From NCBI GenBank assembly GCA_022648325.1, contig JALCMG010000002.1:1-64000 (forward strand): a DNA stretch of 64,000 nucleotides. Direction: 5' to 3'. Of this stretch, positions 1-13,591 are shown piece after piece (position 1 is the stretch's first letter; each line of letters opens with the position of its first letter). The position numbers and the translations under genes are program-made. The notes under the pieces were generated by a model that was not told the DNA's origin, did no database searches, and saw only the letters and a program-made list of their open reading frames with translations. The DNA comes from Olsenella sp. Lineage in GTDB: Bacteria > Actinomycetota > Coriobacteriia > Coriobacteriales > Atopobiaceae.

Positions 1-777
1 CTTCGCCGCCTGCCACCCCTCGCGCCTCACGCCGTCGGGCGCGTCGTTCATCCACTGCACGACATGGAACGGGTCCATCACCCACCGGGCGTTCGGGCAC
101 CTGCGCCTCGCCGGCGCCCTGATCCATCTCGCGCCGTCGGCCGTCACGGCCTCGATGGCGCGCCTCCGCTCCCGCGTGAGCCCGCCGAAGGATAGGCCCG
201 GCACCTCCCTCCCGCATCCCTCGTGGGCCCACATGAGGCACCCGCGGTCGTGGCCGGCGACGACGGCCAGGCACTTGCGCCCCTTCTTGCAGGGGGCCTC
301 GTCTATCCCTATGCGCCTCACCCCATCGAACCGCCCGCATCCGCGTGCGGCCTCCAGCCCTGCATAGACGCGCGTGCGGATGCCCCCGGCGGCATGCCAT
401 CCGATGCGCACGGGCCCGGCGACGGCGCTTGCGGTGCACCGTACCGCGAGGCATGCCGCCCAGTCCTCGAAACCGCGCGTGAGGCGCGATCCGCGCCGCG
501 CCCATGGCACCGCTTCGACCAGCACGCCGTGCTCCGGGCAGGAGACGCGGCTGGGCCTGTATTCGAGGAAGCATTCCGACCTGGCCAGGTCCATGGCACG
601 CCGCCTTCTGGGAGACGGCGACCCGTCGTAGCATGCGCACTTCCCGCCGCAGGCCGGGCACCGCAGCGCATGGCTCTTCCGGGGCCTCGCCCCGACGACC
701 ACCGCGTCCCCTTCGATGCGTGCACATTCGATGACCGCATGCGCCAGCGCGAGCGCGTGGCGTAGTATCCTGTCCAT
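1..777 (-). CDS. ISL3 family transposase, partial (C-terminus off window)
   Basis: An open frame of 259 codons starts at ATG 777 and runs off base 1 without a stop. The N-terminal zinc-binding region is visible: CPACGGKC at about residues 46-53, then a second Cys and His pair in a VSCPEHGV motif. Further on a GIDEAPCKKG stretch (ISL3 transposases carry the first DDE aspartate in a G-I-D-E type motif) and VMDPFHVVQWMN carry the expected catalytic-core motifs. It moves its own element by DDE chemistry. Base composition matches the GC-rich host rather than the AT-rich gene it interrupts. No frameshift is seen in the visible part, so it may be active. Confidence 0.85.
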   Translation of the reverse strand, partial: MDRILRHALALAHAVIECARIEGDAVVVGARPRKSHALRCPACGGKCACYDGSPSPRRRRAMDLARSECFLEYRPSRVSCPEHGVLVEAVPWARRGSRLTRGFEDWAACLAVRCTASAVAGPVRIGWHAAGGIRTRVYAGLEAARGCGRFDGVRRIGIDEAPCKKGRKCLAVVAGHDRGCLMWAHEGCGREVPGLSFGGLTRERRRAIEAVTADGARWIRAPARRRCPNARWVMDPFHVVQWMNDAPDGVRREGWQAAK

Positions 778-937: not shown

Positions 938-1397
938 AAAAAATATAGCTTTTGCTGCAAAGAGAATGATAGCAACAGATTATTCTGTAGGGATGATCGC
1001 AGAAGCAAAGAAAGGTGAATATCCAGCTAACCTCACTTTCAAAGTTGCGGACGCTATGAGCCTGCCTTACGCAGACAACTCCTTCGATGTAGTGTTAATT
1101 GCCAATGCATTGCACATCGTGCCTGACCCGGAAAAGGTGCTTCAGGAAATCGCCCGTGTGCTGCGCCCGGGCGGCATCCTGATTGCGCCGAACTTTGTAG
1201 AACACAAAGGGACCTTGCCCAGCCGCATCTGGGCGGGAATTTTACGCATAGCGGGTGTGCGGTTTGAACACCGATGGACAGCAGATGAGTACCTGCATTT
1301 CCTGGAAGCAAATGGATGGAAGGTGACCATGAAGCATGAGATGACCGCACGGATGGTGATGGTATATACGGAGTGTATGAGAGGAAAAAACAGATGA
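938..1397 (+). pseudogene. Class I SAM-dependent methyltransferase, 5' part removed by the IS
   Basis: The frame is open straight out of the IS end. It begins mid-domain (about I-A-F-A-A-K-R, then IATDYSVGMIAEAKK, the acidic end of strand beta2), so the SAM-binding glycine motif is missing. What remains holds motif II/III (NSFDVVLIANALHIV) and the LRPGGIL post-motif typical of UbiE/Methyltransf_11 proteins, then a complete C-terminus. A start at ATG 966 would give 143 residues, too short for a working enzyme. Its stop overlaps the next start (ATGA), so it was the first surviving gene of a coupled operon. The substrate is unknown. Confidence 0.8.
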
Positions 1398-1579
1398 AAA
1401 TAGAAATGCCCGCAGCGCATTTCTTAGGACACGGGGATGTGGATGTTTTACATCGCGAAGAAGTACAAGCGGAATTGGAAAAAGAAGGCATGATTATTTT
1501 GACGAACGAGATCCAGAACGGTATGAGGATGCACCTAGTGGCGCGAAAGCCATATAGGGACGAGGCGACAAGCCTATGA
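1394..1579 (+). CDS. Small ORF resembling a methyltransferase C-terminus
   Basis: Sixty-one codons begin at ATG 1394, overlapping the stop of the previous gene by ATGA, and end by overlapping the next start in the same way (ATGA at 1576-1579). The protein has a GHGDVDVLHREEV stretch and ends with an MRMHLVARKP motif that resembles the last strands of a class I methyltransferase. It is either the tail left by internal deletion of a second methyltransferase, kept open by the overlaps, or a genuine small coupled protein. No catalytic motif is present. The overlaps make it likely to be translated. Confidence 0.5.
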   Translation: MKIEMPAAHFLGHGDVDVLHREEVQAELEKEGMIILTNEIQNGMRMHLVARKPYRDEATSL

Positions 1580-2325
1580 TCATGCATGACTGGAATACCG
1601 AAAATCCAGAGGCAATCCTGCTGATTCATCCCATGCTCGCATCGGCGGCACTGGTCAGGAGCTGCCTTACGGACTATCTGGGAGATTGCCACCGATATCT
1701 TGTGCCGGACCTGTCCGCCCATGGAGCCGCAGGAAACGAAACCTATCGAAGTGCTGCTGACGAGGCGAAGGCGATCCATTCGTACCTTATCTCAGAAGAT
1801 GTAACGCATCTGAAGCTGGCCTATGGGGCATCCTTGGGCGGTGTTGTCCTGCTGGAACTTCTGGAGTATAAAGATCTTGATATTGACCACCTATTCTTTG
1901 AGGGAATGAGCTTCTTTACAGACGCAACATTCATGTACTGGATTTTCAGGTTCGCCTTTTTGTTTGCGCACAGAAACGCCGTGAAGAATCCGGCTTTGGC
2001 AATGAAGAAGATGACGTCACTGTATGGGGCGGAATGTGCGGAGGAGATGACAAACAATCTGATCCGAATGAAGAAGGAAAGCATAGTCAATATCGTGCAC
2101 GACTGCGGCTTTGTGGATCTGCCGAGGCTGGAGGAGAAAACACAGAAGAAATGCACCTTCACTTACGGCGAAAAGGACTTCGACTATAAAAAAGCCATGA
2201 AGATAATCCCAAAAGTATACCCGTTTGCAGGCACCATGGTTTGGCCTGGATATGGGCATTGTGAAAAACTCATCAAAGAGCCGGAAGTCTATGCGGATAT
2301 ACTGAAACAGGACATGTGCCGTTAG
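1576..2325 (+). CDS. Alpha/beta hydrolase
   Basis: This 249-residue protein has an alpha/beta-hydrolase layout. An early ILLIHPMLAS strand would form the oxyanion region. The nucleophile elbow GASLGG (G-x-S-x-G) lies near residue 83, a late acidic candidate is in YGEKDFDY near residue 196, and a C-terminal His is in WPGYGHCEK near residue 227. The DLSAHGAAG loop after strand 4 is typical of soluble esterase and hydrolase enzymes. It is coupled by a 4-bp overlap to the methyltransferase remnants and converges on the two ABC genes. In context it probably hydrolyses an ester or amide in the molecule handled by the cassette; the substrate cannot be told. Confidence 0.8.
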   Translation: MIMHDWNTENPEAILLIHPMLASAALVRSCLTDYLGDCHRYLVPDLSAHGAAGNETYRSAADEAKAIHSYLISEDVTHLKLAYGASLGGVVLLELLEYKDLDIDHLFFEGMSFFTDATFMYWIFRFAFLFAHRNAVKNPALAMKKMTSLYGAECAEEMTNNLIRMKKESIVNIVHDCGFVDLPRLEEKTQKKCTFTYGEKDFDYKKAMKIIPKVYPFAGTMVWPGYGHCEKLIKEPEVYADILKQDMCR

Positions 2326-2466
2326 TCATGAGAAATCAGGAAGATGCTGTTTATAAGACAGAAAAGGGAACAGTTTCCAGACAAAAGATTCAAAGATCAG
2401 ATAAGAACAAGCCGCACCAACTCTTTCTTGAGAATCGGTATGGCTTGTTTTTGGGGGCGAATTATT

Positions 2467-4203
2467 TTATCCGATCTTCCAGCCAATGGCCTGTCTTCTG
2501 GAATTGACAAAGCGTCTGTAAACACCCTCTCGCATCATCAGTTCCTCGTGCGTTCCGCGCTGCACGATACGCCCTCTGTCTACGACAAAGATCTGATCTG
2601 CATTTCGCACCGTCTTCAAGCGGTGGGCAATCATCAGAATTGTTTTTCTCTTCGTCAATGCCTCGATCGCCTCCATGAGCTCCTTCTCATTTTCCGGATC
2701 GACATTGGCAGTGGCTTCATCGAGAATAATGACCGGAGCATCCTTCATGATAGCTCTTGCAATGGAGATCCGCTGCCGCTCCCCGCCGGACAGCGAAGCG
2801 CCGTGTTCCCCGATGACCGTATCATATCCATCCGGCAGAGCCATGATGAAATCGTGGCAGCAGGCTTTCTGCGCAGCGGCAATTACTTCATCCATGGATG
2901 CATCCGGCCGCCCGAAGCGGATATTATTGGCTATCGTATCGTGGAAGAGGTAGACGTTTTGAAACACGAAACTGAAGTTCTCCATCAGGGAGTCCATGGA
3001 GTAGGCCTTTACATTTCTCTCATCCAGAGTGATTACTCCTTTATCCACATCCCAGAACCGTGCGATCAGGTGGCAGAGCGTAGTCTTGCCTCCGCCGGAT
3101 GGTCCTACAAAAGCTACAGTTCCTTTCTCCGGCACGGAAAGCGATACATCGTCGATGATCTTCTTTTTTCCATAGGCAAAATCAATGCCGGACACTTTAA
3201 TGTTGTGTGTCAGCGGAGTCACATTTTTCCCCGAAATATCCATCGGGGAAAGGCTTAGTACCTCTTTCCCACGATCTACGCACAATCCCACGACTCTAAG
3301 CAGCGCGGAGTAGGAGCCCATGGATTCCAGTCCGGTGAAAACAAAGAAGGCCATGATCATCATCATGATGGTCATGAGTAGCTCCATGGAGCCATGTAGA
3401 TAAAATCCGATGGACGCAAGAATCACAGCCACACCCGTCAGCTTTAGTGCGATATTCTGATATGGAATGTACTTGTTGGAAATCATTTCCAGTTTTGTAT
3501 TTGTGGCAGCAGCTTCTTTGATGGCGTCGTCCAGCTTTTTCCTGGACTTCCCGGTCATGTTATAAGCCTTAACCTCGGAAATGCCCTGAATGTATTCCAA
3601 CACCCGTTCGATCACCTTGGTATCAACGGCAATCTTCGCTGCGGCTGTTTCCACATTGGCTTTTCGCATGCTGTGATTGATGAGGGCAAATACGATCACT
3701 CCGGCAAGGCAGATGAGTCCGATCCTCCAGTCAAAGAGGAGGATGAACAGGACAATAATGGCTGTGTTCAAGATCCCCTGCGTCGTCAGCATGACTACAC
3801 GCGTAGCCACATCCCCAAGCTGCTCCATGACATTGGTTGTGACAGTAGTGATTTCTCCCAGGCTGTTTTGATTGAAATAGCCCATGGGAAGATAGCGCAG
3901 ATGCTCTGCAATCTCGATCCGCTTCCCCGCACACTCCTGATAGCCTGCCCTGCACTGCAGCATGGTCGACTTGCTGCGGAAGAGTGACTCCAGGAGAACC
4001 GAAACAAGCAGAATCATAAATCCCACAAGCACCCGGCTGTCGGATATGGAATCAGAGAGGAATCCGCCAAGCACCAGATAGATCGCCGGAAATTTTGCGG
4101 CTTCGCAGAGGGCGATCAGCACGCCGATCCCCAGTGACTGGTAGAACATCCGGCGGTTGTCTCCCGCGCAGAAATCAAAGAATTTCTTCAGTGTAGCAAT
4201 CAT
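2467..4203 (-). CDS. ABC half-transporter, permease-ATPase fusion (second subunit)
   Basis: The 578-residue protein has an N-terminal six-helix exporter-type membrane domain (about residues 15-300) and a C-terminal ATPase. Walker A is GPSGGGKTT, the signature is LSGGERQRIS and Walker B is VIILDEATANVD, followed by the switch His in MIAHRLKT; all are intact. It starts at ATG 4203, overlapping the upstream ABC gene by ATGA, so the two are surely co-made as a heterodimer. Exporter-fold pairs next to an AraC regulator are also known as siderophore importers (YbtPQ, IrtAB), so the direction of transport is open. The cassette context favours import, which is inference. Confidence 0.85.
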   Translation of the reverse strand: MIATLKKFFDFCAGDNRRMFYQSLGIGVLIALCEAAKFPAIYLVLGGFLSDSISDSRVLVGFMILLVSVLLESLFRSKSTMLQCRAGYQECAGKRIEIAEHLRYLPMGYFNQNSLGEITTVTTNVMEQLGDVATRVVMLTTQGILNTAIIVLFILLFDWRIGLICLAGVIVFALINHSMRKANVETAAAKIAVDTKVIERVLEYIQGISEVKAYNMTGKSRKKLDDAIKEAAATNTKLEMISNKYIPYQNIALKLTGVAVILASIGFYLHGSMELLMTIMMMIMAFFVFTGLESMGSYSALLRVVGLCVDRGKEVLSLSPMDISGKNVTPLTHNIKVSGIDFAYGKKKIIDDVSLSVPEKGTVAFVGPSGGGKTTLCHLIARFWDVDKGVITLDERNVKAYSMDSLMENFSFVFQNVYLFHDTIANNIRFGRPDASMDEVIAAAQKACCHDFIMALPDGYDTVIGEHGASLSGGERQRISIARAIMKDAPVIILDEATANVDPENEKELMEAIEALTKRKTILMIAHRLKTVRNADQIFVVDRGRIVQRGTHEELMMREGVYRRFVNSRRQAIGWKIG

Positions 4204-5975
4204 GCGAATACGCCTCCTTCCGTGTCATCGGTATCCTTTGCGTACACATGGGTCTCCCACATATTCCGGTAGAGCGCACAGGAGGTAAGAAGCTCTGTAT
4301 GCGTTCCTCTTGCCTCAATATTTCCTCCCTTGATCACCACGATCTGTTCAGAATCGGTGATCGTAGACAGTCTATGCGCAATGACAATGAGAGTCTTTCC
4401 CTTGGAAAGCGCGGAAACCGATTTTTGAATCATCGCTTCATTTTCTGGATCCGTGTAGGCCGTTGCTTCATCAAGGATCAGGATCGGCGCGTTTTTCATC
4501 ATTGCTCTTGCGATGGAGATCCGCTGCCGCTCTCCTCCAGAAAGGTGGGCACCGCTGCCACCCACGATCGTATCAAAGCCATTCTCCAGTTTCATGATAA
4601 AGTCATAACAGCCGCTCTTTCTGGCAATCTCCTCCACCTCCCTATCAGAGGCAGAAGGATGACCCATACGGATATTTTCCCGTACCGAGGTGTCAAACAG
4701 GAAGCTGTCCTGGGAGACATACGCGATCTGCGAATTGTAATCGGTAAGGGACATGTCCTTGATATCTACATCTCCAATGGTGATACTTCCTTCCTGTACA
4801 TCCCACAGAGAGGCAATCAGTCTTGCGATGGTGGATTTGCCGCTGCCGCTGGGGCCCACCAGGGCGGTCACACTGCCCTCTGGAATCTTCAGATCAATGC
4901 CATGTAGGACCTCCTTCTCTTCATAGCCGAAGCGGACATGATTCAAAGCGATGTCATGGTTCTTTGGTATATACTTGCTAGTCTCAGGACGTTTCAGCTC
5001 CGGCAGCCCCAGAACCTCATCGATCTCTCCGAAGATGGAAGTCGCCTTTGAGATGTCGTCGTTATAGCTCATCACCGTAATTAACGGCGTGATGAGTCCG
5101 CAGGCGAGGATGACCACCATGATGAAATCCGGCAGCGACAGCGTCCCATGCATGGTAAATAGTGCACTGACAGGCAGGACAGAGAGGAGCGTGGCCGGGG
5201 CAATCACCATGCCGAGAGAAAAAGGAATGATACAGGCCTGCATCCAGTCGATGAAGCTTTTGGCATTTTCCTCAGCGGCATCTGCGAAGCGTTGGTAGGA
5301 GCTCTCTGCTTTCCCGAAGGCCTTGATAACCTCAATGCCGCCGATGTATTCTACGGCCGTATCATTCAGCTCCTTCGTGGTGTCCTGTGTTTTCTGAAAT
5401 CTTTCGCCGCTGTCCTTCATCATCCACATCATTGCGATAGCGGCGACAGGGAGCGTAGTAAGAGAGAGGAGCGCGACTCGCCAGTCAATGGTCAGGATGT
5501 AGACAAACAGCAGGACCGGCGCGCAGAGGTTGGCGGTAAACTCCGGCACTACATGAGCCAGTGTCGGCTCCATGGAATCCGTCCGCTCGCAGATGATATT
5601 TTTCAGTGCTCCGGACGGCATTTCCTGCACCGTACCGAGAGGCAGTCGGGAGAGCTTATCCACCAGAGCGATCCGCACATTCCCAATCACCTGAAAGGTC
5701 GCCTTGTGAGAGGTCTTTGTAGACTGGGTGTGAAAGCTCACCCGCAGAATCCAAAACAAAGCCATGAGCAGCCCTTCTACAAGGTATACGTTGAACTTCC
5801 GTTCTCCGGATAAAAGCTTTCTCACCATGTCTCCCATCAAAACATAGGGAGCCAGGGAAAAGGCTACTCCAATCACGGCAATGACAACGCTTTTGATATA
5901 AGAGCTTTTGTATTCGCCGGCAAACTGGAGAATGTAGGTGAGTATGCCTTTTTGTTTTCTCGTTTTCGCATCCAT
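4200..5975 (-). CDS. ABC half-transporter, permease-ATPase fusion (first subunit)
   Basis: The start at ATG 5975 is chosen because AGGAGA lies nine bases upstream; a TTG at 5981 is the longer option. The protein is about 591 residues. The N-terminal membrane domain spans about residues 20-310. The ATPase follows, with Walker A GPSGSGKST, a Q-loop in AYVSQDSFLF, signature LSGGERQRIS, Walker B LILDEATAYTD and switch IAHRLST. All catalytic residues are present, so both sites of the heterodimer look competent. It lies downstream of the AraC gene on the same strand (gap about 50 bp) and overlaps its partner by four bases. Likely substrate: the small molecule sensed by the AraC protein; identity unknown. 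Confidence 0.85.
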   Translation of the reverse strand: MDAKTRKQKGILTYILQFAGEYKSSYIKSVVIAVIGVAFSLAPYVLMGDMVRKLLSGERKFNVYLVEGLLMALFWILRVSFHTQSTKTSHKATFQVIGNVRIALVDKLSRLPLGTVQEMPSGALKNIICERTDSMEPTLAHVVPEFTANLCAPVLLFVYILTIDWRVALLSLTTLPVAAIAMMWMMKDSGERFQKTQDTTKELNDTAVEYIGGIEVIKAFGKAESSYQRFADAAEENAKSFIDWMQACIIPFSLGMVIAPATLLSVLPVSALFTMHGTLSLPDFIMVVILACGLITPLITVMSYNDDISKATSIFGEIDEVLGLPELKRPETSKYIPKNHDIALNHVRFGYEEKEVLHGIDLKIPEGSVTALVGPSGSGKSTIARLIASLWDVQEGSITIGDVDIKDMSLTDYNSQIAYVSQDSFLFDTSVRENIRMGHPSASDREVEEIARKSGCYDFIMKLENGFDTIVGGSGAHLSGGERQRISIARAMMKNAPILILDEATAYTDPENEAMIQKSVSALSKGKTLIVIAHRLSTITDSEQIVVIKGGNIEARGTHTELLTSCALYRNMWETHVYAKDTDDTEGGVFA

Positions 5976-6028
5976 AATCAAATTTCTCCTTTATCTATCC
6001 AATACATCAGGAACCTTTTACTTTCCCT

Positions 6029-7030
6029 TTATCCATCGAGTGCATCAGACGCTCTCTGCAGCTTGCATTTCCTGCGATATTCCAGCGGGGTAACTCCGAA
6101 ACAGGCCTTGAAGGCAGCGCCGAATTTTGCCTGTGTGGAAAACCCGACCTTCAGCCCGATATCCGCAAGCTTATTTTCCGTAGACCGCAGCATCTCTGCA
6201 GCCTTTTCCATCCTTGCACTCTGCTGAAACTCAGCATATCCACAGCCATAGACGCTTCGGAAGTAGTTCTTAAGGCTTGTCTCGCTGACACCGAACCGTT
6301 CCGCCAGCTCCCGTGCTGTATGGCGGCGGGATAGGTCAGAGCAGATCAAATCCTTTGCTCTTTTGGCAATTTCTACCTGTGACTCGGAATAATAGGTTCT
6401 TTTCACCTGCACCTGCCCAAAGTCCAGATGCGCCAGGTAGGTCAGCAGCTCCGTGCACTTTATGTAGAGCAGTTCATTTCCGAACGGTGCTTCCGCATAA
6501 TACTGAAATACATCATAAAAGTCGGATAGAAATTTCCCGGCAGTCCTGATCCATGGTTTCGTTTGCCCTTCGAGATGGTGGTAGAGAAAGGACGCAGCAG
6601 ATGGAAGGCTTACCGTTTTGCCACCTTCCGGCAATTGCTTTGCTTCCTCCACATGGAAAATCACCTCAAAGCCAGTGTATTCGCCATCCGGATAGAAAAA
6701 GGAGCTTTCAGCCTGTCCGGTATCCACAGCAATCTCCCCAGCGGCCAGGAAGGTACGTTCGCCGCTTTTTAGGCGCAGCTCACATCTTCCCCCGGAGCAA
6801 TAATTGATTTTTAGTTTTCTTAGGCCTTTTGTGGATTCTTCTATACGCTCCGGAATCTTCGTGGAACAGATTCTAATCAGGATAAAAAGACAGTTGTCAT
6901 CCAGAAAAACGGTCGTTAGTTTCCCCTCCGCCTTCCCGATATTGGAAGGGAGAGGCACTTCCATCCGGCTGCCATCTTTAGAGATCAGTGCTCCAGCCTT
7001 TGCGAATCGTTTTGTGACAGCATCCTTCAT
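6029..7030 (-). CDS. AraC family transcriptional regulator
   Basis: The C-terminal third carries the two helix-turn-helix units of AraC proteins: AKRAKDLICSDLSRRHTARE, then LAERFGVSETSLKNYFR, and later KLADIGLKVGFSTQAKFGAAF with the usual C-terminal G-V-T-P-x-E-Y-R-R. The N-terminal two thirds is a sensor-like domain without a recognised ligand motif. The start is taken at ATG 7030, behind GGAAGG; a TTG at 7060 would overlap the preceding ATPase stop. Length is about 333 residues. It lies between the ECF module and the exporter-fold ABC pair, and by analogy with YbtA it probably activates them when the substrate is bound. Palindromes upstream of the operon (9968, 10053) are candidate targets. 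Confidence 0.85.
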   Translation of the reverse strand: MKDAVTKRFAKAGALISKDGSRMEVPLPSNIGKAEGKLTTVFLDDNCLFILIRICSTKIPERIEESTKGLRKLKINYCSGGRCELRLKSGERTFLAAGEIAVDTGQAESSFFYPDGEYTGFEVIFHVEEAKQLPEGGKTVSLPSAASFLYHHLEGQTKPWIRTAGKFLSDFYDVFQYYAEAPFGNELLYIKCTELLTYLAHLDFGQVQVKRTYYSESQVEIAKRAKDLICSDLSRRHTARELAERFGVSETSLKNYFRSVYGCGYAEFQQSARMEKAAEMLRSTENKLADIGLKVGFSTQAKFGAAFKACFGVTPLEYRRKCKLQRASDALDG

Positions 7031-7056
7031 CTTCTCACCGACCTTCCTTATATGAT

Positions 7057-8568
7057 TCAACTGATTTGAGCTATGCGTCCATCCTTGATCCGGATTGTCC
7101 GGTCACAGCACTCTGCCGCAAGCTCCGGGTCATGCGTGGATACAAATATCGTTTTTCCCCGTTTCGCCAATTCTTTCAGCAATAGAGACACCTCCTTCAT
7201 GTGCCGGTAATCCAAGCCGGAGGTGGGCTCATCAAAAAGAAGGATTTTGGCATTGGCAGCTATGGCCGACGCGATCGCCACACGCTGCTTCTGCCCGCCG
7301 GATAGTGCCATCGGATGCTTCTCCCTGTATTCCAGCAGATCAAGGCTTGCCAAAATCTCCTTTGCTTGGGTTTCATCCGGCTTTTCCATCGACAGAAGCA
7401 CTTCCGAGAGGACACTGTCCGTGAAAAGCTGATGGTTCACGTCCTGCATGACCATGTAACATAGTTTTGTCAGCTTCTTGCCTGCATACCGCTGCCCGTC
7501 CATCCAGACGCTCCCGATACAGGTTTTCTCAAGCCCACAGAGACAACGGAGAAAGGTAGATTTCCCGGAGCCGTTGCCACCTGTGATGCCCACGATTTCT
7601 CCCGGCTTTACCTGCAGGGAGGGAATTCGTATCGTGCATATAGGTGCGTCTTTCGGAGATAGTTTTTTCTTAAAGAAAAGGTATTTCTGCGGGTGATAGG
7701 TAAAATAAAAGTTTTTGAGCAGGATGTCGTTGTTTTTGTACGGTTCATCACGGGGCGCTTCATTGACCTGATATGGAAAATGTTCATATGCCGACTCTGT
7801 ACCGGAATATTCCCTGATGTACCGTTCTTCCAGATTCACCGGACGAAGCTCATATGCCGCAAGTTCACTTTCGGATAAGGACGCGAATTCTTCACGATCC
7901 CACTCCCGAACGATCTCCCCTTTTTCCATATAAACTGCGCGGTCAATCACTTCCTTCAAGTACCATAGCCGATGCTCGGAAATCACAATGGTCTTTCCTT
8001 GGGCCTTCCATAGCTTCAGCATGTCCCGGAGGTCACGGATCGCGCTCCAGTCCAGATTGGAGGACGGCTCATCCAGCAGGATGATCTCCGGCAGAAGCGC
8101 TGCGACAGAACCACAGGCGATTTTCTGCTTTTCTCCCCCGGAAAGCCGGAACAGGCTCCGGTTCATGAGGGACTGAAGGTTCAGCTCCGCGACGATGCGC
8201 CCCTTCCTTGCCAGGATTTCCCTTTTGGGGAGTCCGATGTTTTCCGGGCCAAAGGTGATTTCCCCGTCGGTATCTACAGAGAAGAATTGGCTTCTGGGGT
8301 TCTGGAAAACGCTTCCAACCAGCCCTGCGAGGGAGTACAGTTCCTGTTCTCGAATTGCCTTACCATTTACGACCACTCTTCCTGTCAGTTCGCCTTTATA
8401 AAAATGGGGGATCAGGCCGTTGATCAGCCGTGTCAGTGTTGTCTTTCCGCATCCGGAAGCTCCGCACAGAAGAACACATTCCCCGTCCTTTATGGTCAGA
8501 TTGATATTTTTTAGTCCGCCCCGTTCCAGGCCGTTGTAGTGGAAGTTCACATTTTGAATTTTGATCAC
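7057..8568 (-). CDS. ECF transporter ATPase with two fused nucleotide-binding domains
   Basis: The start is GTG 8568, overlapping the EcfT stop by GTGA; the longer frame to 8652 lies inside the EcfT gene and is rejected. The 503-residue protein carries two complete ATPase domains. Domain 1 has Walker A GASGCGKTT, signature LSGGEKQKIA and Walker B ILLDEPSSNLD; domain 2 has GGNGSGKST, LSGGQKQRVA and LLFDEPTSGLD. Most ECF transporters use separate EcfA1 and EcfA2, so here one chain replaces the pair. It powers EcfT and the S component encoded just upstream in the same operon and is translationally coupled to EcfT. Confidence 0.9.
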   Translation of the reverse strand: MIKIQNVNFHYNGLERGGLKNINLTIKDGECVLLCGASGCGKTTLTRLINGLIPHFYKGELTGRVVVNGKAIREQELYSLAGLVGSVFQNPRSQFFSVDTDGEITFGPENIGLPKREILARKGRIVAELNLQSLMNRSLFRLSGGEKQKIACGSVAALLPEIILLDEPSSNLDWSAIRDLRDMLKLWKAQGKTIVISEHRLWYLKEVIDRAVYMEKGEIVREWDREEFASLSESELAAYELRPVNLEERYIREYSGTESAYEHFPYQVNEAPRDEPYKNNDILLKNFYFTYHPQKYLFFKKKLSPKDAPICTIRIPSLQVKPGEIVGITGGNGSGKSTFLRCLCGLEKTCIGSVWMDGQRYAGKKLTKLCYMVMQDVNHQLFTDSVLSEVLLSMEKPDETQAKEILASLDLLEYREKHPMALSGGQKQRVAIASAIAANAKILLFDEPTSGLDYRHMKEVSLLLKELAKRGKTIFVSTHDPELAAECCDRTIRIKDGRIAQIS

Positions 8569-9311
8569 AGCAGTTTCACCCCACTTTGCAACGAGAGCCA
8601 TACATAGAAAATGGTCAGTATGCTCATAACGGACACAATCAGAAAATCGCACGCATGAAAGCCGATGTCACAGATATTGGTCCGTTTCACCGGTACCCCA
8701 AGACCTCTGGTAACCGCTGCGGCGGACAGCTCGTCGCCAATGTTCACACTGGAAAACAGAAGCGGGATCAGCCGGTAGGCCACCATCTTCGTCACCTTGC
8801 CACCGCCAAATTGGATCCCTCTCATCTTCATGGCATCGCGGATCGAGCGGTATTCCTCTGCCAGAGTCGGGAAGAAGCGCATCATCACGGCAATCGATAT
8901 GGATAATCCCTGCGGTGCGTGCATGCGGTTCATCGCTGCCATAAACTCATTGATTTTCGTCGTGGAAATGCAGTACCAGACGGTGATCATAGTCGGCGCA
9001 AACTGTGTGACCATATAACACAGGAAGAGAACCAGCATGCCAAGCGCCCCGCCGAAGTGGCGCTGTGCATAATTCTGCAGAACGGACGCTGCAATAAACA
9101 GAACGGTAAAACGTGCTCCGATGTGAAGCTTGCCTTCCAAACAAACCAGAAAAACCGGGACAAATGTCATGATGGCCCGGACAATATAGGCCGGGCCATC
9201 CACAACATCAATCATCACCACGACAGAAAATAAGACTAGGATAAGAAGCTTGCTTCTCGGATCCAGGTGGAGCCAGCCGGTTATTTCTTTTCTCTTCTTT
9301 CCTTCATCCAT
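8565..9311 (-). CDS. ECF transporter transmembrane component T (EcfT/CbiQ family)
   Basis: The 248-residue membrane protein has several hydrophobic segments, two near the N-terminus after the soluble lead WLHLDPRSKLL, a hallmark of CbiQ/EcfT proteins. A cytoplasmic stretch near residues 150-180 contains RSIRDAMKMRG, the Ala-Arg-Gly-type coupling-helix region that docks the ATPase; a second such motif, AAAVTRGLG, lies near residue 205. The gene begins one base after the S-component stop and overlaps the ATPase start by four bases, giving a compact S-T-A operon. It transmits ATPase motion to the substrate-binding S subunit in the membrane. Confidence 0.9.
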   Translation of the reverse strand: MDEGKKRKEITGWLHLDPRSKLLILVLFSVVVMIDVVDGPAYIVRAIMTFVPVFLVCLEGKLHIGARFTVLFIAASVLQNYAQRHFGGALGMLVLFLCYMVTQFAPTMITVWYCISTTKINEFMAAMNRMHAPQGLSISIAVMMRFFPTLAEEYRSIRDAMKMRGIQFGGGKVTKMVAYRLIPLLFSSVNIGDELSAAAVTRGLGVPVKRTNICDIGFHACDFLIVSVMSILTIFYVWLSLQSGVKLL

Positions 9312-9902
9312 TTACACGATCCCAGCTTTTTCAAAATTCTTCCGCACGACAGCCTTACCGATCACTGCGCCGACCATGCCAGAGATAAAGCAGATCACAA
9401 TAATAACTGGATAGGTCTTCGGAGTGACCAGGGTAAACAGCGTATCTACAAAGGAAGCATCATAGCCGCCTTCAAGCAGGCTCTGCTTATAAGAGTCCGC
9501 CGTAAGCACCAGCGGCAGATAACTGGCCACTACCCACAAGCTGAATACGCCATAACTCACGAAAGTCTTCTTCCAGCTCTTATAATTTCCGGATTTAGCA
9601 ATCAGATCAGCAATCAAACCCGCCGCGATGCAGATAGGAGCTCCGGTCAGTCCCATTCCGAAGATAAAGAGAAGAATGGCAACAATGACAGAGGTGATAG
9701 TAATCATGCCGAATTTCTCAATCCTTGCATAGTAGAGCATCATGGGAATACCGGTGACAATGGGAATCAGAACCGCATACCCTGCCACAATAAACGGGGA
9801 AAGAAAACCCAGGTACATGATAACCATCTGGACGACCCAGAGGATTGCTGTGAAAATACCGATTGTGATAAAATCTCTTGCCTGAAGCTTATTTTGATTC
9901 AT
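9312..9902 (-). CDS. ECF transporter S component, MptD/Trep_Strep-like
   Basis: The start is ATG 9902 because a strong GGAGGG lies about ten bases upstream; the open frame extends to 10082 but that part covers palindromic promoter DNA. The 196-residue protein is nearly all hydrophobic, with about six membrane helices (LWVVQMVIMYLG, VIVAILLFIFGMG, ICFISGMVGAVIG among them) and a short positive N-terminus (KLQARDFITIG) as in S components. Length and helix pattern fit the Trep_Strep/MptD group, whose substrate is not firmly established. It gives the ECF complex its specificity and is the first gene of the minus-strand operon. Confidence 0.8.
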   Translation of the reverse strand: MNQNKLQARDFITIGIFTAILWVVQMVIMYLGFLSPFIVAGYAVLIPIVTGIPMMLYYARIEKFGMITITSVIVAILLFIFGMGLTGAPICIAAGLIADLIAKSGNYKSWKKTFVSYGVFSLWVVASYLPLVLTADSYKQSLLEGGYDASFVDTLFTLVTPKTYPVIIVICFISGMVGAVIGKAVVRKNFEKAGIV

Positions 9903-9967
9903 GAAACGATCCCTCCTATTGGCTAATGCAGTGTATCTTTTGCAACCGATCATTCGGAGCTCTTCTA

Positions 9968-9985
9968 AGTTAGCATAGTCTAACT
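9968..9985. promoter_or_regulatory. Inverted repeat in the S-component/esterase divergent promoter
   Basis: AGTTAG and CTAACT are perfect arms around a 6-base centre, in the gap between the divergent S-component and esterase genes. The half-sites recall the TTAG/CTAA arms of iron-responsive DtxR-type boxes, but the spacing is wider than in those boxes, so that link is only a suggestion. It could equally bind the cassette's AraC protein. Confidence 0.4.
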
Positions 9986-10052
9986 CGAGTTTATATCCCA
10001 TTTTGTTATTTTTGTTCCATATAGCATCGACTTTCTCCACGACCGTTGTTAG

Positions 10053-10073
10053 TCTCAACAAACTATGTTGAGA
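10053..10073. promoter_or_regulatory. Second inverted repeat in the same divergent promoter
   Basis: TCTCAACA and TGTTGAGA form perfect 8-bp arms around AACTA. It is not followed by a T-run, so an operator is more likely than a terminator. It sits between the two divergent transcription units and could control both. Confidence 0.45.
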
Positions 10074-10179
10074 TTCCTCCATCGCAAAGGAAAATATTTT
10101 TTGTGCGTTATAGGAGAAACTTCAGATTTGTACAACAAGCCTGAAGTATATTTTGGGACAATAGAAAGCAGGTGGGCAG

Positions 10180-11688
10180 ATGATCACGCTTACAACAAAG
10201 CTGGGATCCGTTTATGGGAAACCATGTGGAACATCTGATGACGGAAAAACAGTTTACGAAATTCACAGCATTCCTTATGCCAGGGCCAAACGCTTCGAAA
10301 AGCCGGAACGGATTACCCAATATCCAAAAGGGGGAATCATAAACCGGGAAGAAACGGTTTGCTTCCCACAGCATGGGTACCCGCTATGGATGAATGTGTT
10401 CATGAAGCACCACATGATGCGCCCTGAATTTCTTCCTACTAAGGATGCGCAGACGGAAGACGCCTTTGTTGTTAACATCTGGACGGATGATTTAAAGGGA
10501 AACAAACCGGTCACTGTTTTTTTGCACGGCGGTGGAGAGGGGAGCGGCACCGTCCCCATGTACAAAGGGGATAATCTTGCAAAGAAAGGCGTTGTGGCGG
10601 TTACGGTTACGTACCGCATCGGAAGCTTTGGATACATGCCGACATTTGACGGGAACCTCATGAACGCGGATCTGGCTTATCTGGATCAGCAGGCGGCGCT
10701 TCTTTGGATACGGGATAATATCCAATATTTTGGCGGTGATCCTGACAACATCACTTTGGTCGGACATTGCGGAGGGGGGCTTGCGGCTCTCTATCAATTT
10801 CTTAATCCAACAAGCAGCCAATGCTTCCACAAGCTCATGATGCTTTGCGGCAACCTCCCCTCCCTGATTGACCGTAAGACTGCAAAGGAAATGTACCAAA
10901 GTTCTCTGCAGCACTATAAGGTCAGCAGCCTTAGCGAGCTACAAAACCTCCCTGCGAAAGCTTTCTTGGGACACAGCCGAATTGGGCAGGGTGATGTGTT
11001 TGACGATGCGTTTTTCATTGACGATCCGAATACTCTCCTGAAAGAGGAAAGATTTCCGAACATGCCGGTTCTGATCGGAACCAATGCAGATGAATTCTCC
11101 ATGATTGAGTTGCCAATGTACTACCGCTTCCTTGGGATCACCACAAAAGAGAAGGATCTTGATGCCGCACTGGAGAAAAAGTACAAGGAATACGGAAAAG
11201 AGTTGAAAGACGAGATATGGTCAGAGGCACAGAGTGGAATTGATTTACAGGTCAAAATCATGGAGCTGCTCGTCTTTCATACATCCGCTTTTCAGATGAT
11301 GGAACAGATCAGCCGGAAATGCCCTGTATACGGCTATCGGCTAAGTTATGTTCCCGCCTTATACAAGGGGCTTCGCGGAGCCTATCATGGAGCGGAACTG
11401 GCGTACTTTTTCAATAATTTTGATAAAATGCGAATCCCTGTCACGGAGGAAAACAAGAGGCAGGCTTCCATCATACAAAACGACTGGATCTCATTTATCA
11501 AAAACGGCGAAATCCCGAATAGAGAGAAATATAACGAGCATGGACTCATCACCTTTTATGACAAAAAGATAAAAAGCATCGACTTTCCACACAAAGAATT
11601 CATACAGGAACTGCTGAAAACAGATCTGCCAGAACAAAATCGCCACAGCTACATTATGAATATGTCTGAGCCTACCGGCAAAGTATAG
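10180..11688 (+). CDS. Type-B carboxylesterase-like protein with Cys at the nucleophile position
   Basis: The 502-residue protein has the full carboxylesterase type-B layout: an N-terminal G-S-V-Y-G strand, YEIHSIPYARA, an oxyanion loop VTVFLHGGGEGSG near residue 110, the EDAFVVNIW Cys-less core strand, and DQQAALLWIRDNI followed by FGGDPDNITLVGH. The usual G-E-S-A-G elbow reads GHCGGG here, so the catalytic Ser is replaced by Cys (codon 10768-10770). The acidic member (GTNADEFSM) and the His (AYHGAELAYFF) are present. It is divergent from the ECF operon and closed by a terminator at 11720. It probably acts on the cassette's substrate, as a thiol hydrolase, a weak esterase or a binding protein. 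Confidence 0.8.
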   Translation: MITLTTKLGSVYGKPCGTSDDGKTVYEIHSIPYARAKRFEKPERITQYPKGGIINREETVCFPQHGYPLWMNVFMKHHMMRPEFLPTKDAQTEDAFVVNIWTDDLKGNKPVTVFLHGGGEGSGTVPMYKGDNLAKKGVVAVTVTYRIGSFGYMPTFDGNLMNADLAYLDQQAALLWIRDNIQYFGGDPDNITLVGHCGGGLAALYQFLNPTSSQCFHKLMMLCGNLPSLIDRKTAKEMYQSSLQHYKVSSLSELQNLPAKAFLGHSRIGQGDVFDDAFFIDDPNTLLKEERFPNMPVLIGTNADEFSMIELPMYYRFLGITTKEKDLDAALEKKYKEYGKELKDEIWSEAQSGIDLQVKIMELLVFHTSAFQMMEQISRKCPVYGYRLSYVPALYKGLRGAYHGAELAYFFNNFDKMRIPVTEENKRQASIIQNDWISFIKNGEIPNREKYNEHGLITFYDKKIKSIDFPHKEFIQELLKTDLPEQNRHSYIMNMSEPTGKV

Positions 11689-11719
11689 TCAACAGGTGCA
11701 AGGATATAAGATACGAACG

Positions 11720-11745
11720 AAAGCCACTCCATCCAAGGTGGCTTT
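11720..11745. terminator. Intrinsic terminator between convergent genes
   Basis: AAAGCCAC and GTGGCTTT form an 8-bp stem around a 10-base loop, with T-rich bases after the stem on the plus strand. It lies between the esterase stop and the convergent stop of the PRD regulator and may serve both. Confidence 0.7.
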
Positions 11746-11760
11746 TGCTTTGTATAAGGC

Positions 11761-13143
11761 TCAAAAAGTATTTACATAAGAAGAACACTCCCAGGTGGCA
11801 ATTATCAAATCGACATCATTACGCTGCAGGTATTCTTTTGCCTCTCCAAGAGATTTTGGGCCAATAAGCCGGCATCCAAATAGCAGTCTTTCCAAACGTG
11901 ACTTCAGTAACACGCTAGTTGCAAGGCCGAAAGAGCAGACAAAAAGGATAGTTGGGACAAGATCCTCTCCTCCGCTTGCCTCAAAAATGGACGTAAGATA
12001 CATCGCTATGTAGGCTATTTCGCTTGGAGGAAATTCAACTCCGCATTCTTCAAGAGTGCTTGATGTGAACTCAAGAATGAGTGGAGAGGTGAGGCGAAGA
12101 TAGGACTCCATCTTCTCATCATGCAACTGAATATTGTTATGCTTTCGATAGAGCGCCGCTCGAATGTGTTCCGTAAGCATCGAGATGACATCCTTGACTG
12201 CGACGCCATCAATTTGCTGATACTTACTGAGTGCGTCAACCAGTTGTCTCGAGAGCTTCTCCGCCTCTCCGTTCATGGCGTCAGCCTCTGTGCGTTCTCT
12301 TTGGGATGGCAGCGGACCTATTCTCTGCGAGAGAATCAGGGTTGCCAGATAGGTTCTCTCGTCCCGCTGGGAAATGTACTTCTCGAGCATTATACGGAGC
12401 GAATCTAACGTCTCTGCGTTTGACGATTGTTCAAATTCGTAGCTTACCGACTGAATGGTGTGCCGGCGCTGGATGCGGCACAAAATATAGCAAACAAGAG
12501 TTTCGATATAGTCCTCGTTGAGAAACCCCATGCCCAAGATGGCTTTCGCATGCTGGACAATTTCCTTTGCGAAGGGCATGCACAAACACATGTCCTCATA
12601 GTGAGAGACCAAATCACTAATGCAGTCCGGGCAGGGGTTATCAGCGAGAAGCTGAACAAATGCATGACATATGTTTAATTCGTCTGCCTCTAAAGCCAAG
12701 CCTTTTCCTTGGCAGCGAACTACCGAAATGCACTCATTCTTGAGCACCGCTTCCACTTCGGGGAAATCACGGATTGCAGTTTGTCTACTCACTCCACAAT
12801 CATTTGCAAGAAGCTGAAACGTCGCTGAGTCACGAAGCAGAAGAGACGCGGTCATTACTGACAATCTCTCTTCGGAATCAAGGATTCGTCGGCCATACGT
12901 TTCAAGCGTCCGGAGAAGCGACTGCATGCTGCTTGGAGTGCCAACCAGCACGATTCCCTTACCGCGCTTGCGCTCGAGGATCACGTTATGAATATGAGCG
13001 AACTGCTCAAGCTGAGACAAGTCATTTCTCACTGAACGGACACTCACATGGAAGCGGTATGCAACGTCACCAACGAGCACCGGTTCATCTTGCCGACAAA
13101 GCCATTTGAGTTCGCTAACCTGTCGATTCGTCAAGTCGAACAT
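11761..13143 (-). CDS. BglG/MtlR-type PRD transcriptional regulator, C-terminally truncated
   Basis: The 460-residue frame starts at ATG 13143. It has an N-terminal HTH (VLVGDVAYRFHVSVRSVRND), a second winged-helix region (LLANDCGVSRQTAIRDFPEVE), PRD-like helical domains with a His near CHAFVQLLAD and another in TEHIRAAL, and a PTS IIB-like domain whose phosphate loop reads LFVCSFGLATS. It stops abruptly after the beta strand DLIIATWE, where relatives continue through the rest of IIB and often a IIA domain. These proteins switch sugar operons in response to PTS phosphorylation. No cognate PTS operon adjoins, and the cut falls at the border of the AT-rich cassette, so it is probably a 3'-truncated remnant that may still fold in part. 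Confidence 0.75.
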   Translation of the reverse strand: MFDLTNRQVSELKWLCRQDEPVLVGDVAYRFHVSVRSVRNDLSQLEQFAHIHNVILERKRGKGIVLVGTPSSMQSLLRTLETYGRRILDSEERLSVMTASLLLRDSATFQLLANDCGVSRQTAIRDFPEVEAVLKNECISVVRCQGKGLALEADELNICHAFVQLLADNPCPDCISDLVSHYEDMCLCMPFAKEIVQHAKAILGMGFLNEDYIETLVCYILCRIQRRHTIQSVSYEFEQSSNAETLDSLRIMLEKYISQRDERTYLATLILSQRIGPLPSQRERTEADAMNGEAEKLSRQLVDALSKYQQIDGVAVKDVISMLTEHIRAALYRKHNNIQLHDEKMESYLRLTSPLILEFTSSTLEECGVEFPPSEIAYIAMYLTSIFEASGGEDLVPTILFVCSFGLATSVLLKSRLERLLFGCRLIGPKSLGEAKEYLQRNDVDLIIATWECSSYVNTF

Positions 13144-13591
13144 AATTCATCACCCCGCTTCCTGATTAGAATGTACGTGCCATTCAATATGGCAACAATG
13201 ACCAATCGGAGCAGAGGAAATGGCAAAGATGAGCTTTAATAGATGATGCTTAGGGTCTAACCTGCGTAAATACCAAGTTCTCCGTTCATTCTAATGATCT
13301 CTTGGTTAGACAATTAAACTAAGAGGCAATCCAAAGGAAATAATGTTGCATCCGTCGAGAACACGTAGGAATAAGACTCCGTCGTTCTTTTCGAGTGGTG
13401 CCGACAAGTGCAGAAGAAAAGAGGGGTTTCTGACAACGCTGTTGTCAGAATTCAACTCACGTGAAAAGGAGGCTCTAAAAAGCAAGACCGGAGCTATCAC
13501 CAAAGATATTGCCGACAAGAAGTAAGACGATAAAAGAAGGGCGCCTGTGCGGCGTCCCCCTTCCATGAGACAAAGGGACTGTCCCTTTGTC
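13144..13591. other. Border region between the AT-rich block and the GC-rich chromosome
   Basis: No confident gene is seen. A 60-codon plus-strand frame (13343-13525) matches nothing I recognise and could be a gene tail. A perfect 8-bp hairpin, CTGACAAC-GCT-GTTGTCAG, lies at 13430-13448. Composition shifts to high GC close to 13540, which marks the likely right border of the acquired DNA. Confidence 0.5.

Follow-up and report, generated by a model that had tools for sequence, protein, structure and literature searches.

The equibactin locus of Streptococcus equi, carried on ICESe2, combines importer genes (eqbHIJ) with a fused permease-ATPase pair (eqbKL), an alpha/beta-hydrolase gene (eqbN) and genes for siderophore synthesis, and is controlled by EqbA, an Fe2+-responsive repressor (PMC3672683). 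Deletion of eqbHIJ blocks equibactin-dependent iron uptake, and eqbKL are dispensable for iron uptake and may export (PMC3672683). Metal-dependent binding in gel-shift assays requires the operator, AACTATTATT-GTTAG-ATGTAT-CTAAC-AATAATAGTT, which a 2008 description set apart from other iron boxes (PMC3672683). Here we describe an AT-rich cassette with a comparable set of genes near the start of a 64,000-nucleotide stretch of Olsenella sp. DNA (GCA_022648325.1, contig JALCMG010000002.1, positions 1 to 64,000; "the window"). We read this cassette, with a probability of roughly 80%, as an equibactin-type module for metallophore (siderophore) uptake, iron-repressed and AraC-controlled, that lacks a synthetase and would import a ferric chelate produced by other organisms.

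The cassette shares with the equibactin locus the linked importer genes and transporter pair, the iron-repressed GTTAG-N6-CTAAC core operator, an alpha/beta-hydrolase gene and a mobile element, a likeness drawn from reported annotation, gene order and operator rather than from protein comparison. It differs in having no nonribosomal peptide synthetase (NRPS), in carrying an AraC-family regulator, in its repressor, which lies outside the cassette, and in having a carboxylesterase and methyltransferases in place of the synthesis genes. The order published for 023_CTn1 of Clostridioides difficile RT023 (ABC, ABC, AraC, ABC ATPase, ECF, membrane protein) is that of the window, with the difference that genes for thiazolinyl imide reductase, saccharopine dehydrogenase and an NRPS come next (PMC6814731; likeness taken from the gene list). 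Staphylococcus lugdunensis has an energy-coupling factor (ECF) importer linked to an equibactin-like NRPS and proposed to take up a metallophore (PMC12709192), differing from the window in that the synthetase is present. LhaSTA is likewise an ECF importer serving iron, but its ligand is heme and an exporter-fold pair is not reported; the S components of heme ECF systems are described as dissimilar among themselves (PMC7299338). YbtPQ-YbtA likewise places an exporter-fold heterodimer next to an AraC regulator within a locus for an iron siderophore. It is about 30-32% identical to its counterparts in the window, but has no ECF importer and is accompanied by an outer-membrane receptor, FyuA. The yersiniabactin locus is under Fur, where the window has an EqbA-type operator.

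Conserved linkage of the importer and the exporter-fold pair

The core of the cassette consists of the following features (EXA and EXB are the two exporter-fold halves; genomes, contigs and loci other than the window carry our labels G, C and L):

2467-4203, minus strand: exporter-fold ATP-binding cassette (ABC) half-transporter EXB (ABC_membrane and ABC_tran; 45% identical to EXB of the NRPS locus L207)
4200-5981, minus strand: exporter-fold ABC half-transporter EXA (matches in PDB; 45% identical to the pair of the siderophore locus on pAPRE01)
6029-7060, minus strand: AraC-family regulator (HTH_18; orthologues of 51-53% identity at the corresponding position in L046, L052 and L055)
7057-8652, minus strand: ECF A component with two fused ATPase domains (two ABC_tran stretches, ECF_ATPase models)
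8565-9311, minus strand: ECF T component (CbiQ family)
9312-9902, minus strand: ECF S component, Trep_Strep/MptD, 196 aa (PF09605, 190.7 bits)
9969-9984, no strand: iron-operator dyad GTTAG-CATAGT-CTAAC (pattern GTTAG-N6-CTAAC), 66 bases before the S start
10009-10025, minus strand: putative AraC site GCTATNNGGNNNNAAAA, proposed from its recurrence upstream of S genes

On the minus strand the genes run S, T, double ATPase, AraC and the two exporter-fold half-transporters, with ends that overlap or nearly so, and S, T and two ATPase domains are encoded together, as expected of a dedicated ECF module. Open reading frames and families thus confirm a full ECF module, an exporter-fold heterodimer beside it and an AraC regulator between the two, all of which had been proposed from the sequence in the original prediction. 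The S component passes the curated cut-offs of both PF09605 (28.7 bits) and TIGR02185 (129 bits against 76.45), and its AlphaFold2 model (mean predicted local distance difference test score 92) finds ECF S components, 5edl (probability 1.00) and 3p5n, as the best solved folds; a sequence search of PDB with the same protein gave no match. Its nearest relatives (74-88%) come from Lachnospiraceae, Erysipelotrichaceae and other gut anaerobes. The family assigned earlier to this gene therefore stands, but the start called at 10082 does not: the gene very probably begins at 9902, because relatives share the protein only from that ATG, with a conserved GAGG Shine-Dalgarno sequence before it. A longer S protein was rejected, its N-terminal 60 residues showing no conservation as protein. 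The true start of the A gene is probably internal, since the annotated frame overlaps T by 85 bases.

We sampled 243 Clostridia genomes evenly and scored 60 stretches around Trep_Strep genes for an adjacent exporter-fold pair, with 20 stretches around BioY (the biotin S family) from the same genomes as control. The pair is present in 48 of the 60 Trep_Strep loci and in none of the 20 BioY loci (Fisher p = 6e-11; several loci per genome were counted, so they are not fully independent), and it accompanies 45 of 50 long loci of the nearest S relatives. FeoB, DtxR, flavodoxin and ZIP are among the neighbours of the module. This conservation supports the view that S, T, A, the exporter-fold pair and AraC act as a functional unit, and the co-occurrence of S component and exporter-fold pair that the original prediction had anticipated is borne out, their homologues being linked rather than scattered. 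The host genome holds a single pair of this type, with the next exporter outside it scoring 229 bits against 1313. As an observation on the pair itself, locus L206 (G267:C2) carries a nearly identical one (about 1040-1110 bits) beside a far more distant ECF set, and pair and importer have therefore been exchanged between loci.

Iron operator, putative AraC site and siderophore-synthesis genes in relatives

The pattern GTTAG-N6-CTAAC has a single exact copy in the window (0.01 expected), between the esterase gene and S, and matches the core of the EqbA operator in both arms and in spacer length (6 bases). It is strongly enriched around related modules: the 1.10 Mb of Clostridia loci contain it 52 times, where two control patterns have 2 and 1 copies and composition alone predicts about 1, and the 389 kb around BioY genes contain none. 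In loci carrying the nearest S relatives, the dyad lies a median of 52 bases from the next gene, and the genes 3' of it are S, EXA, AraC, FeoA/FeoB and DUF3793/flavodoxin operons; in single loci it also precedes an orthologue of the cassette's esterase (L084) and one of its methyltransferase (L075). An EqbA-type operator is thereby indicated to be widespread, and our literature search did not find such a box described beyond the EqbA work.

The cassette has no repressor gene of its own, and the host genome (G000) encodes a sole short DtxR-family repressor of 152 aa (contig C7). Two one-mismatch dyads at the host feoA-feoA-feoB operon (G000:C8; L307:464 and 1384) are suggestive of a host repressor that may read the cassette operator. 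A host-wide regulon built on the 15 genomic copies of the dyad was rejected, most of these lying within a 40-base interspersed palindrome where the dyad is a coincidence. This palindrome of about 40 bases (centre CCGATCGGTTAG-N6-CTAACCGATCGG) is found between genes, often paired 61 bases apart (L297:2545, L298:3577, L304:9195). A riboswitch upstream of S was likewise rejected, as cmscan against Rfam returned just a sub-threshold small nucleolar RNA match.

About 25 bases farther upstream of S than the dyad lies GCTATNNGGNNNNAAAA, which has 12 copies in 3.05 Mb of loci (0.01 expected in the window). All of them, the one in the NRPS locus L207 included, precede an S gene in its coding orientation and have an AraC gene next to them. 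Its position and recurrence suggest a binding site of the AraC protein. With an iron dyad and a putative AraC site side by side, control looks two-keyed, combining an iron repressor with a chelate-sensing activator. Such two-keyed control is also found in the yersiniabactin and pyochelin systems.

Siderophore synthesis is encoded beside some of the relatives. NRPS genes occur in 7/60 Trep_Strep loci, all seven of them with the exporter-fold pair and six with a thiazolinyl imide reductase; the three full-length reductases tested all pass the NCBIfam TIGR01761 cut-off, and one linked NRPS is a Condensation-AMP-binding-methyltransferase protein. Locus L207 runs from NRPS through reductase, AraC, S, T, A and EXA to EXB; its five transporter proteins are 37-51% identical to those of the window (29-51% for six proteins, the regulator included). 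The nearest NRPS-linked exporter pair, 43-45% identical to that of the window, is on the conjugative plasmid pAPRE01, together with a DtxR-like regulator, the dyad, a thioesterase, an AMP ligase, an NRPS, a reductase, an importer dependent on a substrate-binding protein (SBP) and a hydrolase; importer and pair therefore vary separately. No thiazoline NRPS was found in the cassette or in the host genome, which has one Condensation match only, so that an imported chelate would be foreign. That match is a lone A-PCP-C protein (G000:C12, L125:856-3375; open frame of 989 aa). Of the features of an equibactin-type locus, then, the linked ECF importer and exporter-fold pair and the EqbA-type operator are present and the linked thiazoline NRPS is absent, which is why we describe the cassette as equibactin-like in its working and not as a siderophore producer.

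Proposed function and its alternatives

Under low iron, the short DtxR-family repressor of the host would leave the GTTAG-N6-CTAAC operator, and the AraC protein, which probably senses the chelate as it enters, would activate from the upstream site. The S component would bind the ferric chelate, with T and the double ATPase driving inward transport, and cytosolic hydrolases (in intact versions also the methyltransferases) would release the iron by altering the chelator. Processed or empty chelator would then most likely leave through the exporter-fold pair, for which a second import step is the less probable assignment. Tentatively, and short of even odds in our judgement, this could extend to a wider system for the uptake and processing of foreign siderophores, in which the Cys esterase and the recurrent methyltransferases, hydrolases and a metallo-beta-lactamase-fold protein would work with the ECF importer and the exporter-fold pair to dismantle the chelator, and the EqbA-type operator would mark a large iron regulon of gut and rumen Clostridia, distinct from the classical Fur/DtxR boxes.

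If the cassette is a metallophore uptake module, the Trep_Strep/MptD S components, annotated merely as putative, gain a testable substrate class, many paired ECF and exporter-fold transporters of gut and rumen anaerobes are tied to iron, and it becomes possible to test directly what makes an exporter-fold pair such a frequent companion of the importer. Anaerobic commensals are seldom regarded as siderophore users; the lack of a nearby synthetase in most carriers suggests siderophore piracy between gut microbes.

Several observations weigh against this assignment. Most Trep_Strep loci have no NRPS within 10 kb, and the ligand may consequently not be a thiazoline compound. EqbA also answers to Zn2+ and weakly to Mn2+ (PMC3672683), which makes iron the likely rather than the proven metal. 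The dyad otherwise occurs in the host mainly inside an unrelated interspersed repeat, the loci of the linkage count are partly dependent, and the placement with equibactin-type loci draws on synteny, the operator and reported annotation. As for the pair, EXB does not prefer YbtPQ over MsbA among its PDB matches, and the tree that places YbtP and YbtQ near the window pair supports its deep nodes at 0.3-0.5 only.

The last two points bear on the reading in which the exporter-fold pair would import the chelate too, in the manner of YbtPQ or IrtAB, in series or in parallel with the ECF system. The best half-transporter matches of EXA in PDB are YbtP and then IrtA, ybtA-ybtP-ybtQ presents the same neighbourhood of AraC and pair, and the pair is retained even in loci with no synthetase to serve; against this, S. 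equi continues to take up iron upon loss of eqbKL and shows lowered extracellular activity (PMC3672683), a pair of this kind accompanies another type of importer, one that depends on an SBP, on pAPRE01, and the grouping with YbtPQ is weakly supported in the tree. We consider a second importer possible but doubtful. The chance that the ECF part imports heme or another tetrapyrrole, which the enzymes would modify or release, appears small: heme ECF systems such as LhaSTA exist and control by an iron operator would suit heme import, but no heme-degrading or tetrapyrrole genes were found among the conserved neighbours, where thiazoline siderophore genes were, and no Rfam riboswitch lies near the operon. 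The original prediction had offered a metal chelate or a tetrapyrrole as the captured molecule; the former gains from the thiazoline-siderophore genes of relatives and the EqbA-type operator, and for the latter nothing specific to heme or cobalamin was found.

Least probable of all, and in our view very improbable, is that the ECF part imports a vitamin or cobalt/nickel and that a drug pump unrelated to it lies adjacent by chance. Trep_Strep proteins have no firm substrate and the T component is annotated as CbiQ-like, but the contrast between Trep_Strep and BioY loci of the same genomes and the EqbA-type operator before S both speak against it. We also regard it as unlikely that the cassette, once acquired, is now losing its function through insertion of an insertion sequence (IS). 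An ISL3 element adjoins a truncated methyltransferase gene, and the EXB frame of a second copy of the cassette breaks near its end; however, the window keeps intact frames for S, T, A, AraC, EXA, EXB, the hydrolase and the esterase, and the 99.6% identity to the copy of a second species speaks for a spread that is recent.

Enzymes, borders and mobility of the insertion

The remaining features of the cassette and its borders are:

1-777, minus strand: ISL3-family transposase, incomplete at the contig end, marking the left border (97.7% match to a full copy, L023:7122-8324)
966-1397, plus strand: S-adenosylmethionine-dependent methyltransferase remnant without its first 60 residues, motif I among them (Methyltransf_11)
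1373-1579, plus strand: second methyltransferase, C-terminal remnant (40-46% identical to methyltransferase tails in L083, L087 and L073)
1576-2325, plus strand: alpha/beta-hydrolase, intact (weak Abhydrolase_6 match, 23.5 bits, below the Pfam cut-off; weak MenH-like match)
10180-11688, plus strand: type-B carboxylesterase with Cys for the nucleophilic Ser, GHCGGG (PF00135, COesterase, 213 bits)
11718-11747, plus strand: terminator-like hairpin 3' of the esterase gene
11761-13143, minus strand: host PRD/phosphotransferase system (PTS) regulator truncated by the insertion (PRD and HTH_11 domains; intact in G002)

The two hydrolase-fold enzymes and the methyltransferase remnants proposed earlier were all recovered, the first methyltransferase without its first 60 residues. 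This remnant matches residues 61-203 of L075:1054-1668 at 74% identity; the L075 gene is the first in an operon of methyltransferase, S, T, A and pair. The alpha/beta-hydrolase is 28% identical to L108:1680-2393, likewise in a module locus. Four Clostridia loci have homologues of the methyltransferases and of further island enzymes next to the module, but these are not universal. The same holds for the predicted linkage of the esterase, which extends to one other locus: in L084 an orthologue of 61% identity with the same Cys motif directly precedes S-T-A, which makes changed chemistry likely rather than a sequencing error. Genes resembling amino-thiazoline-carboxylate hydrolase (ATC hydrolase) also recur beside the module (L102:5639-6307, L075:12156-12815, L108) and may encode a thiazoline-opening enzyme.

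The cassette is a recently acquired mobile insertion. The block lies within 938-13300, a region with a GC (guanine-cytosine) fraction of 0.489 compared to 0.636 over 13600-64000 of the window. A copy in Olsenella sp. Marseille-P4559 (G005) is 99.3-99.7% identical, with the flanking asr genes only 85-93% identical between the two genomes (a difference of 7-15%), and the PRD regulator is broken at about 11787 in both. That gene is whole (592 aa) in the genus-mate G002, which has the older PTS island and lacks the cassette; in four other members of the genus the island is absent and the sequence continues unbroken from asrC. The acquired nature of the block is thus upheld by the GC contrast, the near-identical copy, the diverged flanks and the split PRD/PTS gene. 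The limits first given to it, 938-11745, were nearly right, with the left border now placed at the ISL3 element at the contig end and the right border at about 11787. The transposase is incomplete because the window begins at base 1 of the contig (C2); the full copy in L023 matches both DDE_Tnp_ISL3 and HTH_Tnp_ISL3. The AT-rich DNA from about 11787 to about 13500 is part of the earlier PTS island and not of the cassette.

In G005 the insertion measures about 20.7 kb and has ACTC(G/C)CAGG at each end; past IS elements it also encodes hydrolases, another methyltransferase, a metallo-beta-lactamase-fold protein and a small membrane protein. For several of these extra genes, homologues (60-71%) adjoin the module in L075, L102, L108 or L111, so they probably serve the same function as the cassette. 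The EXB gene of this copy (L023:3697-5265) is frameshifted near its end at an A-rich tract (522 vs 578 residues), by sequencing error or decay.

No conjugation or integrase genes were recognised in the window or in the stretches of the G005 insertion that were read, no near-identical copies were found on plasmids, and a search of viral contigs gave three matches, all distant. In the near relatives L047 and L051, inspection alone suggests neighbours that resemble recombinases and relaxases. S, T, A and an exporter-fold pair make up the main cargo of a mobilizable Corynebacterium plasmid of 20.7 kb (L042, NZ_CP068167.1). Beside asrABC in G005 (L022:8636-11381), sequence inspection points to a FecBCD-type importer, possibly for iron or cobalamin uptake.

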